This document shows positions 34,016 through 42,667 of a DNA stretch of 64,000 nucleotides, piece by piece (the first letter of the stretch is position 1; the number at the start of each line of letters is the position of its first letter). Where the stretch lies: contig BPGD01000001.1 in NCBI GenBank assembly GCA_026002855.1, positions 124,001-188,000 on the forward strand, in the 5' to 3' direction. Both the position numbers and the translations under genes were made by a program. The stretch is from Bryobacteraceae bacterium. Its GTDB lineage: Bacteria; Acidobacteriota; Terriglobia; Bryobacterales; Bryobacteraceae. The notes below the pieces were generated by a model, which worked only from the letters and a program-made list of their open reading frames with translations, had not been told where the DNA came from and made no database searches.

Positions 34016-35446
34016 TCAGCCCTTGATGACGCCCATCGGGCGCAGCCGCGCCACCTTGCGGGCCAGCCCTGCTCGGTGCACCGTCTCGATGACCTCATCG
34101 ACGTCCTTGTAGGCCTCGGGCACCTCTTCGATGATGCCGTCGCGCGTTTCACTGCGAACCAGAATGCCGCGCTCTTCCAGTTCCCGCTGCACCGCGCGCG
34201 CGTCGCGGCCGTGCTTGGCCGCGTGCCGGCTGAGCACGCGCCCGGCCCCGTGGCACACGCTGCCGAAGCTCTCCCGCATCGCCCCCTCGCAGCCGGCCAA
34301 TACCCACGACGCGGTCCCCATGCTGCCGGGAATCAGCACCGGCTGGCCCACGCTGCGATAGTCGGCAGGAATCTCCGGGTGGCCCGGCGGAAAGGCGCGC
34401 GTCGCGCCCTTGCGGTGGACCAGCACGTCCACGGTGCGCCCGTTGTATTCGTACTTCTCGCGCTTGGCAATGTTGTGGCAGACGTCATAGATGAGACCCA
34501 GCCGGACGTGTTTGCCAAACACCTTCTGAAAGGAGCCGCGGACAAAATGCAGCATCGCCTGGCGGTTGGCCCAGGCGAAGTTCGCCGCGGCCCGCATCGC
34601 CTTCAGATACGCCTGTCCCTCCGGGCTCTGGATGGGCACGCAGGCCAGTTGCCGGTCCGGCAGCGTGATGCCGTACTTCTTCATCGCCGCGCCCATCTGC
34701 GCCAGGAAGTCCGTGCATACCTGGTGGCCCAGCCCGCGCGATCCGCTGTGGATCAGCACCACCACCTGCCCTTCCTCCAGCCCGTAGCAGCGGGCCGCCT
34801 CCGCGTCATGCACGCGCTGGACGAACTGGATCTCCAGGAAGTGGTTGCCGCTGCCAAGCGTGCCGATCTGCGGGCGGCCGCGCTCTTTGGCGCGCGCGCT
34901 CACTTCGCCGGCATCGGCGCCGGCCAGGCGGCCGCGCTCCTCGCAATGCTCGATGTCGGAGGGCTCGCCATAGCCGTGCTCCACCATCCACTCCGCGCCC
35001 TGCTCGAGGATCTGGTTGAGCTGCTTTTCGCTGATTTCGAGATGGCCCTTGCCGCCGACGCCGCAGGGGACGTCCCGGAACACCTGGTCCACCAGCTCCT
35101 TCAGGCGCAAGCGGACCTCCTCCTTCTCCAGGTTCGTGCGGATCAGCCGCACGCCGCAGTTGATGTCATAGCCCACGCCGCCCGGGCTGACCACACCGCT
35201 GTCCCAGTCCATCGCGGCCACGCCCCCGATAGGGAACCCGTACCCCTGGTGAATGTCCGGCATCGCCAGCGAAGGGCCGACGATGCCAGGCAGGCAGGCG
35301 ACGTTCATCGCCTGCTCGAGCGAACGGTCCTTCTGCACCTGTTCGTGGATCGCGTCAATGGCATAGAACAGCACATCGGTGCGCATGCCGTGGCGCACGC
35401 CCTTGGGAATCCTGAACCGGACGTCGTCAATCCGTTCGATCTGCAT
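34016..35446 (-). CDS. rtcB: RNA-splicing ligase RtcB
   Basis: A 476-residue RtcB, the GTP- and Mn-dependent ligase joining 2',3'-cyclic phosphate to 5'-OH RNA ends. Conserved stretches are MPDIHQGYGFPIGGVAAMD, GGVGYDINCGVRL (metal Cys), GTLGSGNHFLEIQ, HSGSRGLGHQ, CHNIAKRE, IPGSMGTASWVL and CHGAGRVLSR (guanylylation region). The ATG at 35446 is one base after the archease stop, so the two are coupled. A longer frame upstream of 35446 is antisense or archease sequence. Confidence 0.95.
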   Translation of the reverse strand: MQIERIDDVRFRIPKGVRHGMRTDVLFYAIDAIHEQVQKDRSLEQAMNVACLPGIVGPSLAMPDIHQGYGFPIGGVAAMDWDSGVVSPGGVGYDINCGVRLIRTNLEKEEVRLRLKELVDQVFRDVPCGVGGKGHLEISEKQLNQILEQGAEWMVEHGYGEPSDIEHCEERGRLAGADAGEVSARAKERGRPQIGTLGSGNHFLEIQFVQRVHDAEAARCYGLEEGQVVVLIHSGSRGLGHQVCTDFLAQMGAAMKKYGITLPDRQLACVPIQSPEGQAYLKAMRAAANFAWANRQAMLHFVRGSFQKVFGKHVRLGLIYDVCHNIAKREKYEYNGRTVDVLVHRKGATRAFPPGHPEIPADYRSVGQPVLIPGSMGTASWVLAGCEGAMRESFGSVCHGAGRVLSRHAAKHGRDARAVQRELEERGILVRSETRDGIIEEVPEAYKDVDEVIETVHRAGLARKVARLRPMGVIKG

Positions 35447-35447
35447 G

Positions 35448-35873
35448 TCAGATGTCGAGGAAAACCTCGGCCTCCCACATGCCATTTTGCTTCCGGATGG
35501 CGAGCTGATGGAAGGTGACCGCCTTGACCACGATCCGCGGCCGGTGGCGCGCTTCGTCACGCGGCTCGCCCCTGGCCAGGGCGCTGACCGTGTCGCCGTC
35601 GAAGCGGAGGTCTTCAAACGCTGCCGGCACCCAGTGCTCGCCGTCCAGCAGCCAGAGAACCTCGTTCAGCCAGTTGACGAAGCGGTCTTCCAGCGTCTCG
35701 CCGGATGTGCTGAGTGCGCGGCTCTCCAGCGGCCGCGCCTGCGTCGGGTCGAGAGCGACCGCCGTCAGCGCTTCGGCGGCCCGGATGAAGAGCTCTTCGA
35801 GCGTGCCGGCACGGACCCGGAAGCCCGTGTCCGCCGTATGTTCCAGCAGTTCAAAGTCTGCCACGAGACTCAC
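35448..35873 (-). CDS. Archease, RtcB activator
   Basis: A 141-residue archease. It begins LVADFELLEHTADTGFRV, has VNWLNEVLWLLDGEHWV in the middle, and ends with a short acidic strand (WEAEVFLDI) whose C-terminus lies at the family metal site. Archease speeds RtcB guanylylation and multi-turnover ligation. It is sandwiched by overlap: its start overlaps the stop of the upstream esterase gene and its stop lies one base before rtcB. This arrangement supports joint expression. Confidence 0.92.
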   Translation of the reverse strand: MSLVADFELLEHTADTGFRVRAGTLEELFIRAAEALTAVALDPTQARPLESRALSTSGETLEDRFVNWLNEVLWLLDGEHWVPAAFEDLRFDGDTVSALARGEPRDEARHRPRIVVKAVTFHQLAIRKQNGMWEAEVFLDI

Positions 35874-37087: not shown

Positions 37088-37426
37088 CTAGACCCCGGCC
37101 CACGCTTCGGGGTCAAAACCCACCAGCACCTTCGAGCCCTTCACCAGAATCGGACGCCGGATCAGGTTCGGGTTCTCGCTCATCAGCCGCAACGCTTCCA
37201 GTCGCGGCGGCGGATTGTTCTTCATGTCGAGCTGCCTGTAGAGTTCATTTTTCGGATTGAGGAACTCACGGTAGTCGCGTCCCCCGATGAGGCGGTCGAG
37301 TTCTTCCACCGTGAGGCCCTTCGACAGGTCGACCAACTCGAACTCTTTCCCCGCTTCTGCCAGGAAACTCCTGGCCTTCCGGCAGGTGGTTCAGGTGGGT
37401 TTGGCGTAGAACTTCAGCTTCGGCAC
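37088..37426 (-). CDS. Predicted selenoprotein, ArsC/Spx-like thioredoxin-fold protein (in-frame UGA at redox Cys)
   Basis: A 112-residue protein if the TGA at 37391-37393 (codon 12) is read as selenocysteine. The frame begins GTG CCG AAG at 37426 and reads PKLKFYAKPT, then UGA, then TTCRKARSFLAEAGKEFELVD, a normal ArsC/Spx entry in which the UGA replaces the first Cys of the C-x-x-C redox pair. The rest (LIGGRDYREFLNPKN, MSENPNLIRRPILVKGSKVLVGF) is intact and typical of COG1393 (arsenate-reductase-like) proteins. A perfect hairpin of bacterial SECIS type follows. Translation from an internal start (TTG at 37336) would lack the active site. Arsenate reduction or another thiol-redox role are both possible. 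The start lacks a strong ribosome site. It is downstream of the PIG-L gene on the same strand. Confidence 0.78.
37359..37375 (-). promoter_or_regulatory. SECIS-like hairpin downstream of the in-frame UGA
   Basis: The RNA reads GCCAGGA-GUU-UCCUGGC, a perfect 7-base-pair stem with a 3-base loop whose first base is G. The stem begins 15 bases after the UGA and the loop G is 23 bases after it. These values fit the published bacterial SECIS pattern (apical loop about 16-37 bases downstream of UGA, a G in the first two loop positions). A further CCG/CGG pairing can enclose the hairpin. It lies inside the coding sequence, as bacterial SECIS elements do. Confidence 0.7.
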
Positions 37427-40009: not shown

Positions 40010-41413
40010 ATGGCATTCATCCACGAAGACTTCCTGCTGGCTACACCGCCCGCGCGGCGGCTCTATCATGACTACGCCCGCGACGAACCCATCCTCGACT
40101 ACCACTGCCACCTGCCGCCGAAGGACGTGGCCGAGAATCGCCGCTTCGCCAATCTGTTCGAGATCTGGCTGGAGGGAGACCATTATAAGTGGCGCGCCAT
40201 GCGCGCCAACGGCATTCCCGAAAAGTACATTACCGGGGACGCTTCGCCAAAGGAAAAATATCTCGCCTGGGCGCGCACCGTGCCCAACACGCTGCGCAAC
40301 CCCCTCTACCACTGGACGCACCTCGAGCTGAAACGCTATTTCGGCATCGACGAACTGCTGGACGAAAAGAATGCCGAACGCATCTGGGACCAGGCCAATG
40401 CGCTGCTGGCTGGCGAGAGCCTGCGCGCGTGGGGCATCCTTGAGAAGTTCAGGGTACGGGCCGTTTGCACCACCGATGATCCGGCCGACGATCTGCGCTG
40501 GCACCGCCAGATCGCCGCCTCCGGGCTGAAGACGAAAGTCTTCCCGACGTACCGCCCGGACCGCGCTTTTCTGGTGGACCGCCCGGAGCAGTTCAACTCC
40601 TGGCTCGGGCGGCTGGCGGCCGCGGCCAACATCGACATCGCCGACTTCCAGAGCTTTTTGGATGCCCTGAAAAAACGTCACGACGCGTTTCACGAAATGG
40701 GCTGCCGTCTGAGCGACCACGGGCTGAACGCCTGCTTCGCCACTCCGTGCTCGCAGGAAAAAGCATCAGAAATTTTTGAAAAAGCGCGTGCTTTCATCCC
40801 GGTTTCACCCGAAGACCGGGAGCAGTTTGCCTCTTTCCTGATGCTGTTTTTCGGCCGCCTGGACGCGGAAAAAGGCTGGACAAAACAGCTTCACCTCATG
40901 GCGCGGCGTAACAACAATACGCGCCGCTTCCGCGAGCTGGGGCCGGACACAGGCTTCGACTCGATCGGCGACTGGCCGCAGATGGACGCGCTCGGCGCTT
41001 ACATGGACATGCTGGAAAGCGAAGGCGCGCTGCCGAAAATGATCCTCTACAATCTGAACCCGGCCTGGAATTACGCTTTTGCAACGATGATCGGCAATTT
41101 CCAGGACGGCACGATTCCGGGCAAGATCCAGTTCGGCAGCGGCTGGTGGTTTCTGGACCAGAAAGAGGGCATGGAGTGGCAGATCAACGCCCTGTCCAAC
41201 TGCGGCCTGCTGGCGCATTTCGTCGGCATGCTTACCGATTCGCGCAGCTTCATGTCCTACCCGCGGCATGAATATTTCCGGCGGACCCTTTGCAACCTGC
41301 TGGGCGAGGACATGGAGAAGGGGCTGCTGCCGGCGGACTTCGACTTCGTCGGCGGCCTCGTGCGGCGGATCTGCTACGCGAACGCCGAGCGTTACTTCGG
41401 GCTGCCTCTCTGA
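40010..41413 (+). CDS. uxaC: Glucuronate isomerase UxaC
   Basis: A 467-residue uronate isomerase that converts D-glucuronate to D-fructuronate (or galacturonate to tagaturonate). Landmarks are ILDYHCHLPPKDVAENRRFANLFEIWLEGDHYKWRAMR near the start, VRAVCTTDDPADDL, and the end DSRSFMSYPRHEYFRRTLCNLLGEDMEKG. It is a full-length member in the cytoplasm. It begins the uronate-catabolic run that continues with a SelA-like PLP enzyme 55 bases downstream. Confidence 0.95.
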   Translation: MAFIHEDFLLATPPARRLYHDYARDEPILDYHCHLPPKDVAENRRFANLFEIWLEGDHYKWRAMRANGIPEKYITGDASPKEKYLAWARTVPNTLRNPLYHWTHLELKRYFGIDELLDEKNAERIWDQANALLAGESLRAWGILEKFRVRAVCTTDDPADDLRWHRQIAASGLKTKVFPTYRPDRAFLVDRPEQFNSWLGRLAAAANIDIADFQSFLDALKKRHDAFHEMGCRLSDHGLNACFATPCSQEKASEIFEKARAFIPVSPEDREQFASFLMLFFGRLDAEKGWTKQLHLMARRNNNTRRFRELGPDTGFDSIGDWPQMDALGAYMDMLESEGALPKMILYNLNPAWNYAFATMIGNFQDGTIPGKIQFGSGWWFLDQKEGMEWQINALSNCGLLAHFVGMLTDSRSFMSYPRHEYFRRTLCNLLGEDMEKGLLPADFDFVGGLVRRICYANAERYFGLPL

Positions 41414-41467
41414 CGCCGTGGCGCGGCGCGGCCTTGGGTGACAGGATAGATGCGGAAGGAGACCGCC

Positions 41468-42667
41468 ATGATCTTTGGGAGAAGACCGTTCCTCGGCGCC
41501 CTGGGCAGCCTGCCGCTGTTCGGCAGGGCGGGCCTGGCCGCTCCGCGCCGCCGCGATGTCATCAGCGAGCTCGGCGTCCGCACCTTCATCAACGCCGCCG
41601 GCACGTACACGATGCTGACCGCATCGCTGATGCCGGGCGAAGTGCTGGATGCGATGCGCGAGGCGTCGAAGCACTACGTCAACCTGAATGAGCTTCAGGA
41701 TGCCGTCGGCCGCCGCATCGCCGAGCTGCTCGGGTGCGAGGCGGCGATGGTCACCTCGGGCGCGGCCGGAGCGCTGACGGTGGGCACGGCGGCGTGCATC
41801 ACCGGCAAGGATCCGGACAAGATCCGCCGCATTCCCGACCTGACGGGAATGAAGAGCGAGGTGATCATCCAGAAATCGCACCGCTACGGTTACGACCATG
41901 CCGTGCGCGCCGTCGGCATCCGCATGGTGGAGGTGGAGACGGCGGAAGACTTCGAGCGCGCCGTGAACGAGAAGACGGCGATGGCGCTGTTTTTCAACGA
42001 TGCAGACCCGCGCGGCCGCATCCGGATCGAAGAATTCGTCCGCCTCTGCCGCAAACACGGGATCCCGAGCTTCAATGACGCCGCCGCCGACGTGCCCCCG
42101 GTGGAGAACCTGTCGAAGTACACGAAGATGGGCTTCGACCTGGTCACCTTCAGCGGCGGCAAGGGCATCCGCGGGCCGCAGAGCGCCGGCCTGCTGCTGG
42201 GCAGGAAGGATCTGATCGAAGCGGCGCGGCTCAACACGTCCCCCTACAGCGACTCGATCGCGCGCGGCATGAAAGTGAACAAGGAAGAGATGGTGGGGAT
42301 GCTGGTGGCGCTGGAACTCTACCTGAACAAGGACCACGCCGCCGAGGCGCGTGAGTGGGACCGCCGCGTGGAGGTGATCGCGCGCGAGGCAAAGAAGGTG
42401 AAGTCGGTGACCACCGACGTCGTGGTGCCGCCGATCGCGAACCACACGCCGCACCTGCACATCCGCTGGGATCAGAGCGTGGTGAAGATCACGCCGCCGG
42501 AGGTGATGAAGATGTTGCGCGAGGGGCGGCCCTCCATCGAAGCCTGCCCGATGACAAACCGCGAGGCCCTCGTCTTCACCGTCTGGATGATGCAGAAGGG
42601 CGACGCCGAGATCGTGGCGCGCCGTGTGCGGGAGATCCTGTCGAGCGCGGTGAAAGGCACCGCCTGA
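41468..42667 (+). CDS. SelA/DgaE-like PLP enzyme with Tat-like leader
   Basis: A 399-residue fold-I PLP protein. Landmarks are NAAGTYTMLTASLMP, CEAAMVTSGAAGALTVGTAACI, DPRGRIRIEEFVRLCRKHG and the PLP-lysine segment LVTFSGGKGIRGPQSAGLLLG. These match DgaE-type D-glucosaminate-6-phosphate ammonia-lyase and L-seryl-tRNA selenium-transferase relatives; the partner is a sugar acid rather than tRNA in the former. The leader MIFGRRPFLGALGSLPLFG is Tat-like. The ATG at 41468 is 7 bases after GGAAGGA. It follows uxaC and fits a uronate or amino-acid-sugar pathway, though the export signal is odd for that. It should not be taken as proof of SelA function. Confidence 0.85.
   Translation: MIFGRRPFLGALGSLPLFGRAGLAAPRRRDVISELGVRTFINAAGTYTMLTASLMPGEVLDAMREASKHYVNLNELQDAVGRRIAELLGCEAAMVTSGAAGALTVGTAACITGKDPDKIRRIPDLTGMKSEVIIQKSHRYGYDHAVRAVGIRMVEVETAEDFERAVNEKTAMALFFNDADPRGRIRIEEFVRLCRKHGIPSFNDAAADVPPVENLSKYTKMGFDLVTFSGGKGIRGPQSAGLLLGRKDLIEAARLNTSPYSDSIARGMKVNKEEMVGMLVALELYLNKDHAAEAREWDRRVEVIAREAKKVKSVTTDVVVPPIANHTPHLHIRWDQSVVKITPPEVMKMLREGRPSIEACPMTNREALVFTVWMMQKGDAEIVARRVREILSSAVKGTA

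Follow-up and report, generated by a model that had tools for sequence, protein, structure and literature searches.

The question raised by this locus is whether a TGA that lies in frame near the start of a small gene ends translation or is read as selenocysteine (Sec). The gene lies on the minus strand of the window, the whole 64,000-nucleotide stretch analysed here, which covers positions 124001-188000 of a single-contig 4.44-Mb Bryobacteraceae genome. It occupies 37088..37426, with a GTG start codon (37426-37424), 112 codons and a TAG stop (37090-37088), and the putative ArsC/Spx-like selenoprotein that it would encode has 112 residues including Sec, with an N terminus that would read VPKLKFYAKPTUTTCRKARSFL. 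The sole in-frame interruption between GTG and TAG is the TGA of codon 12 (37391..37393, minus strand), aligned with the first redox Cys of the family, while codon 15 (TGC, 37382..37384, minus strand) forms the second position of the UxxC motif and may supply a resolving Cys. The earlier note had read the same frame, running from GTG at 37426 through KPT, TGA and TTCRKA, and had placed the TGA where the first Cys of the redox pair is expected; re-reading returned this frame exactly, and some homologous loci carry TGC or TGT at that codon. No second copy of the protein was found in its own genome (E ≤ 1e-3). Beyond the TGA the gene is under purifying selection: compared with its nearest relative, L009, whose protein is 87% identical, dN/dS 3' of the TGA is 0.087, and of the 62 differences there, 11 fall on first, 8 on second and 43 on third codon positions.

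The absence of selB and selC from the genome had been named as an observation that would undo a selenoprotein reading. Searches of the genome found selA (3390413-3391702; 494.6 bits against a cut-off of 267.9), selB (855660-857492; 356.1 against 242.25), selD (2807112-2808017; 356 against 125) and a tRNA-Sec (1636577-1636668; 72.8 bits) that ARAGORN reports as tRNA-SeC with anticodon tca, all above their cut-offs. In control genomes the searches for tRNA-Sec, selB and selD match in 14 of 14 at E ≤ 1e-3 and exceed the cut-off in 5, 2 and 2; since such weak matches stem from related genes (tRNA-Ser, EF-Tu like), only above-cut-off matches were relied upon. A second above-cut-off tRNA-Sec match in the source genome was rejected, being tRNA-Ser by ARAGORN. 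The selD gene (L031) holds one in-frame TGA of its own, in the context KAAGUASKL, which independently points to decoding of UGA as Sec in this organism; its product is probably itself a selenoprotein, and SelD is among the selenoproteins listed in PMC1794560 and PMC2398784. Separately, the window carries at 41450-42667 (plus strand), adjoining a glucuronate isomerase gene (40010-41413), a gene for a SelA-fold PLP-type protein that scores 53.1 bits with Pfam SelA and 46.3 bits with TIGR00474, whose cut-off is 267.9; this product is probably not a real SelA, the above-cut-off selA being the one given above.

Evidence also comes from the same codon in homologous loci. An initial scan across public genome contigs returned 14 of them. 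The Sec/Cys count excludes four distant proteobacterial Cys homologues (L018, L019, L020 and L022) and one partial match (L021); the nine Acidobacteriota loci that cover codon 12 (53-87% identity) carry TGA in six cases and TGC in three. Across the class, 175 of 399 genomes match at E ≤ 1e-3, and the wider Sec/Cys count takes in the 129 genomes that match at E ≤ 1e-28, with 130 loci, leaving out a second copy without TGA (G102:C32), the partial matches G090, G303, one G126 contig and one G329 contig, and the more distant matches (about 31-39% identity), a few of which contain one TGA as well. Codon 12 is TGA in 87 of these loci, TGC in 32 and TGT in 11, with no other codon, and since the loci share ancestry these counts are not independent events. 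All four other genomes of the same genus that have a match carry TGA. The possibility raised earlier that the TGA would prove a lesion unique to this genome thus failed. Codons 12 (Sec or Cys) and 15 (Cys) are invariant in a 24-row alignment; L073, which is not in that alignment, has a CTTS motif. In a sample of 396 genomes from the phylum, the family profile finds matches in 17 at E ≤ 1e-25, of which 15 belong to other classes, and one TGA is found within 15 of the 17 matches, counted irrespective of position for the 14 outside-class ones. The two exceptions are G013, which is of the Cys type and comes from the same family as the window, and G515, whose match begins at profile position 17, past the motif.

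Two further observations were made in these scans. The match in L077 (G132) was listed as containing a TAG as well as the TGA, and the 285 bases that follow its codon 12 showed no stop. Six of the weaker matches (G078, G071, G047, G069, G185 and G367; 31-37% identity) have one in-frame TGA each, position aside, and may represent a second ArsC-type selenoprotein family.

Sec genes were compared between the TGA and Cys genomes. A selB match (E ≤ 1e-75) is present in 80 of 86 TGA genomes versus 31 of 43 Cys genomes (Fisher p 0.0023), and selB or selA is matched in 86/86 TGA genomes. With thresholds of E ≤ 1e-40 for selA and E ≤ 1e-11 for tRNA-Sec in genomes lacking a selB match, selA was found in each of the six such TGA genomes and tRNA-Sec in four; G038 and G315, which are 82% and 73% complete, have neither a selB nor a tRNA-Sec match. 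Twelve Cys genomes have no selB match. Three of these have both selA and tRNA-Sec, and in the other nine (nine of the 43 Cys genomes) none of selA, selB and tRNA-Sec was matched. Completeness is 94% or higher for five of these nine, the other four being drafts of 71-89%; the nine sit in two genera (g2 and g89) and may therefore stand for two losses.

Following the TGA on the minus strand is a hairpin (37359..37375) in which two arms, 37375-37369 and 37365-37359, pair over 7 bp around a GUU loop (37368-37366), and which we assign as the upper stem-loop of a bacterial SECIS from its conservation across the family and its fit to the constraints of the bSECIS model. The loop begins 22 nt after the UGA and its G is the 23rd base, exactly the perfect 7-bp GUU hairpin that the earlier note had described. 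As given in PMC13188914, the bSECIS model calls for a loop of 3-9 nt, an upper stem of 4-16 bp, a G in loop positions 1-2, a distance of 16-37 nt from the UGA and a minimum free energy (MFE) of at most -7.5; the hairpin falls within these limits, with a loop of 3 nt, a stem of 7 bp, G in first place and a spacing of 22 nt. The MFE of the region ranges from -15.4 to -19.6 kcal/mol, varying with the stretch folded, and its folding z from -1.7 to -2.1 against dinucleotide shuffles. The best stem of the region was equalled by 31 of 2000 base shuffles, and the anchored-stem score of this gene alone by 159 of 5000 synonymous recodings. By itself the hairpin of the single gene is only moderately unusual, but its recurrence in the family far exceeds what chance would produce.

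The family-wide comparison was anchored on the loop G because loop length varies and a column-wise alignment mixes registers. The anchored score is the best stem whose loop covers the position that lies as far from codon 12 as the loop G of the present gene, computed on unique 57-base stretches (85 TGA from 87 loci and 43 Cys from 43), with synonymous recoding of each sequence by family codon usage, in 500 sets, as the control. Stems of at least 6 bp occur in 80/85 TGA versus 3/43 Cys sequences, and stems of at least 5 bp in 84/85 versus 10/43. The mean stem score of the TGA set is 6.04 versus 2.81 (sd 0.10) after recoding, with 0 of 500 sets as high, while that of the Cys set is at chance (2.63 versus 2.48, 66 of 500 as high). 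GU stands at the fixed loop position in 81 of the 85 TGA sequences versus five of the 43 Cys sequences. Among the TGA sequences 36 different stem-loops occur, and in some of these both arms have changed so that pairing is kept (GCCAGGA/UCCUGGC, GCGAAG/CUUCGC, AGCAAGA/UCUUGCU and GCUCGAC/GUUGAGC). One TGA gene, L110, is an exception with an anchored perfect stem of just 3 bp, and in L017 the arms are complementary, yet the minimum-energy fold of the region differs. Against L009, 2 of 11 SECIS codons differ at the third position versus 41 of 89 elsewhere (p 0.07), or 2 of 12 when codon 12 is counted (p 0.048), and another stretch of the gene is equally quiet at third positions; the lowered synonymous change over the SECIS codons is only suggestive.

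An intact frame under selection, the exchange of TGA with Cys codons, a hairpin linked to the TGA and a full set of Sec genes are shown by sequence; Sec insertion itself, the redox cycle and the substrate are inferred. With a probability of roughly 0.96, we read the gene as encoding a thioredoxin-fold selenoprotein of the ArsC/Spx family, with Sec at UGA codon 12 inserted by way of SelB and a bSECIS, and likely to be a small UxxC oxidoreductase. The proposal in the earlier note of a U-x-x-C ArsC/Spx-like protein gains support from the Sec genes, the TGA/Cys exchange and the TGA-linked hairpin. We propose the following mechanism. SelB carrying Sec-tRNA-Sec would bind the hairpin just 3' of UGA codon 12, so that selenocysteine would be inserted there in place of termination, to give a product whose UxxC motif is made up of Sec12 and Cys15. 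The selenolate would then attack an oxidised substrate, and Cys15 would resolve the intermediate through a selenenylsulfide. Judged from the motif, a role as a selenenylsulfide-forming oxidoreductase is the most likely.

If Sec is accepted, the function of the protein could still be that of a true arsenate reductase using Sec, which we regard as unlikely although the best placed of the alternatives. Profile searches, run with C substituted for U, give a match to Pfam ArsC (PF03960) of 72.2 bits, above the cut-off of 24, and the predicted full-length structure (pLDDT 93.7) resembles E. coli ArsC with an E of 5e-6; arsenate-reductase selenoproteins of the UxxS form are also described in a review (PMC13188914). 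However, the glutaredoxin-linked arsenate reductase model TIGR00014, the ArsC equivalog, is matched at 39.8 bits, well short of its cut-off of 106.05, and the best matches by sequence and fold are Spx, YffB and ArsC-related proteins whose activity is unproven, with the predicted structure matching structures of these three kinds about equally. Nor does any arsenic-related family occur among the neighbours, where seven adjacent ORFs were scanned and six had Pfam families. These neighbours include genes for a PIG-L family protein, an esterase-like protein, archease and RtcB, and the neighbourhood gave no pointer to function: L009 retains the esterase-like gene and the archease gene downstream, and this pair is not kept at the other eight Acidobacteriota loci of the first scan, where L010 and L011 show weak esterase-like matches of 26-28% identity. 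The RtcB RNA ligase and archease genes are themselves adjacent, at 34016-35873 (minus strand) of the window, downstream of the esterase-like gene, and L009 matches the RtcB stretch in antisense.

Somewhat less likely again is an Spx-like regulator that would bind RNA polymerase and sense oxidants by a Sec-Cys switch. The Spx/MgsR model TIGR01617 is the best NCBIfam match, at 71.4 bits, Spx structures are among the best fold matches, and the motif UTTCRKA resembles CTSCRKA of Spx, with RRPI in common. On the other hand, this score falls short of the TIGR01617 cut-off (75.05), and that for the Spx model NF002459 is far below its own (51.2 versus 123 bits). Spx itself (PDB 1z3e, 7f75) shares the fold, the C/UxxCRKA redox motif and the RRPI motif, yet it has Cys instead of Sec and a longer chain, and RNA polymerase binding would be hypothetical for the present protein. 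With 112 residues against 131-132 in the listed solved Spx chains, the protein is missing the C-terminal part of Spx. The more ambitious version of this idea, in which the genes form a further, Acidobacteriota-centred subfamily of ArsC/Spx selenoproteins whose Sec-Cys oxidant switch acts on RNA polymerase as a selenium-based transcriptional regulator, is the most doubtful of the functional proposals, at about one chance in ten. The oxidoreductase reading accordingly stays preferred for the function of the putative selenoprotein.

Proposals that deny Sec fare far worse. UGA readthrough exists in bacteria, and the codon might be read as another amino acid, either by general reassignment or by simple readthrough with a near-cognate Trp or Cys tRNA and no SECIS; nothing specific favours this, and we consider it highly improbable, because the genome has a complete SelA/B/C/D set and a selD with its own TGA, the TGA swaps solely with Cys codons, and the hairpin is kept beyond the needs of the protein in TGA genes and not in the Cys set. 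The weakest alternative, a real stop left by recent pseudogene formation or a sequencing error, agrees with the standard code, by which translation would end after 11 residues and leave an 82-aa TTG-started ORF that lacks the redox motif (37088..37336, minus strand) as what a standard gene caller could report, but it has next to no chance against the family-wide pattern, which strongly opposes it with the same TGA in 87 of 130 loci, four other same-genus genomes included, purifying selection past the TGA, a linked hairpin and a frame free of other decay. Pseudogene, sequencing error and general readthrough are all rejected on the family pattern, the selection, the hairpin and the Sec genes.

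Within ArsC, cd03032 represents the Spx subfamily. ArsC-type selenoproteins are already in print, as the earlier note had stated: the UxxS form was described in PMC1088965, and the UxxC form appears as arsenate reductase 2 (cd03032) in the Global Ocean Sampling selenoproteome, with 42 Sec and 238 Cys forms (PMC2398784), as arsenate reductase-like, NF041106 (PMC13188914), and under COG1393 (PMC9312934). An ArsC-like selenoprotein family is also tabulated in PMC1794560, which gives the Acidobacteria four selenoproteins of three families, and Occallatibacter riparius is credited with three known selenoprotein genes (PMC12013277). Compared by description only, arsenate reductase 2 shares the ArsC-type domain with Sec first in UxxC, whereas its members are marine metagenome reads and 'acidobacteri' is absent from that text. 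NF041106 likewise shares the ArsC fold, UxxC and a Sec/Cys family. This model is matched with E ≤ 1e-5 by 21 of the 24 family members compared (3.2e-10 at best), but at 31.4 bits against a cut-off of 85 the present protein is homologous and, by this cut-off test, of a separate subfamily. E. coli ArsC (PDB 1jzw) belongs to the same superfamily, with the present protein far below the ArsC equivalog cut-off, and in the UxxS arsenate-reductase selenoproteins (PMC1088965) Sec also replaces the catalytic Cys, but the second motif position is Ser there and Cys here. By its cut-off, the gene falls outside NF041106, and in the more ambitious reading given above its subfamily would stand apart from both arsenate-reductase entries of the 2026 review (PMC13188914). 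No paper on an acidobacterial ArsC/Spx selenoprotein was among the matches listed in our literature searches, in which subscription journals are thinly covered. While ArsC-type UxxC selenoproteins are already known, the gene at 37088-37426 would add a well-supported family member from the Acidobacteriota.

In the history of this family, selenium and sulfur have replaced one another more than once. With codon 12 masked, the 130 loci were placed on a rapid protein tree, which has few columns, is weakly resolved and does not distinguish gain from loss. The Sec/Cys pattern requires 13 changes on it, against a mean of 36.3 in 500 shuffles, none of which was as low; branches with good support force only three of the 13. 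Four Cys loci (L099, L104, L122 and L133) and two Sec loci are united in one supported clade (SH-aLRT 98). These Cys copies retain much of the hairpin-region sequence, and L122 still pairs over 7 bp, a hint at a possible recent replacement of Sec by Cys in the four.

With 87 Sec and 43 Cys loci, 13 changes between them, nine Cys genomes in which none of three Sec genes was matched and remnants of the hairpin in some Cys copies, the family is a good natural series for studies of Sec to Cys exchange and of SECIS decay. As standard gene callers stop at TGA, its Sec-carrying members are probably misannotated.
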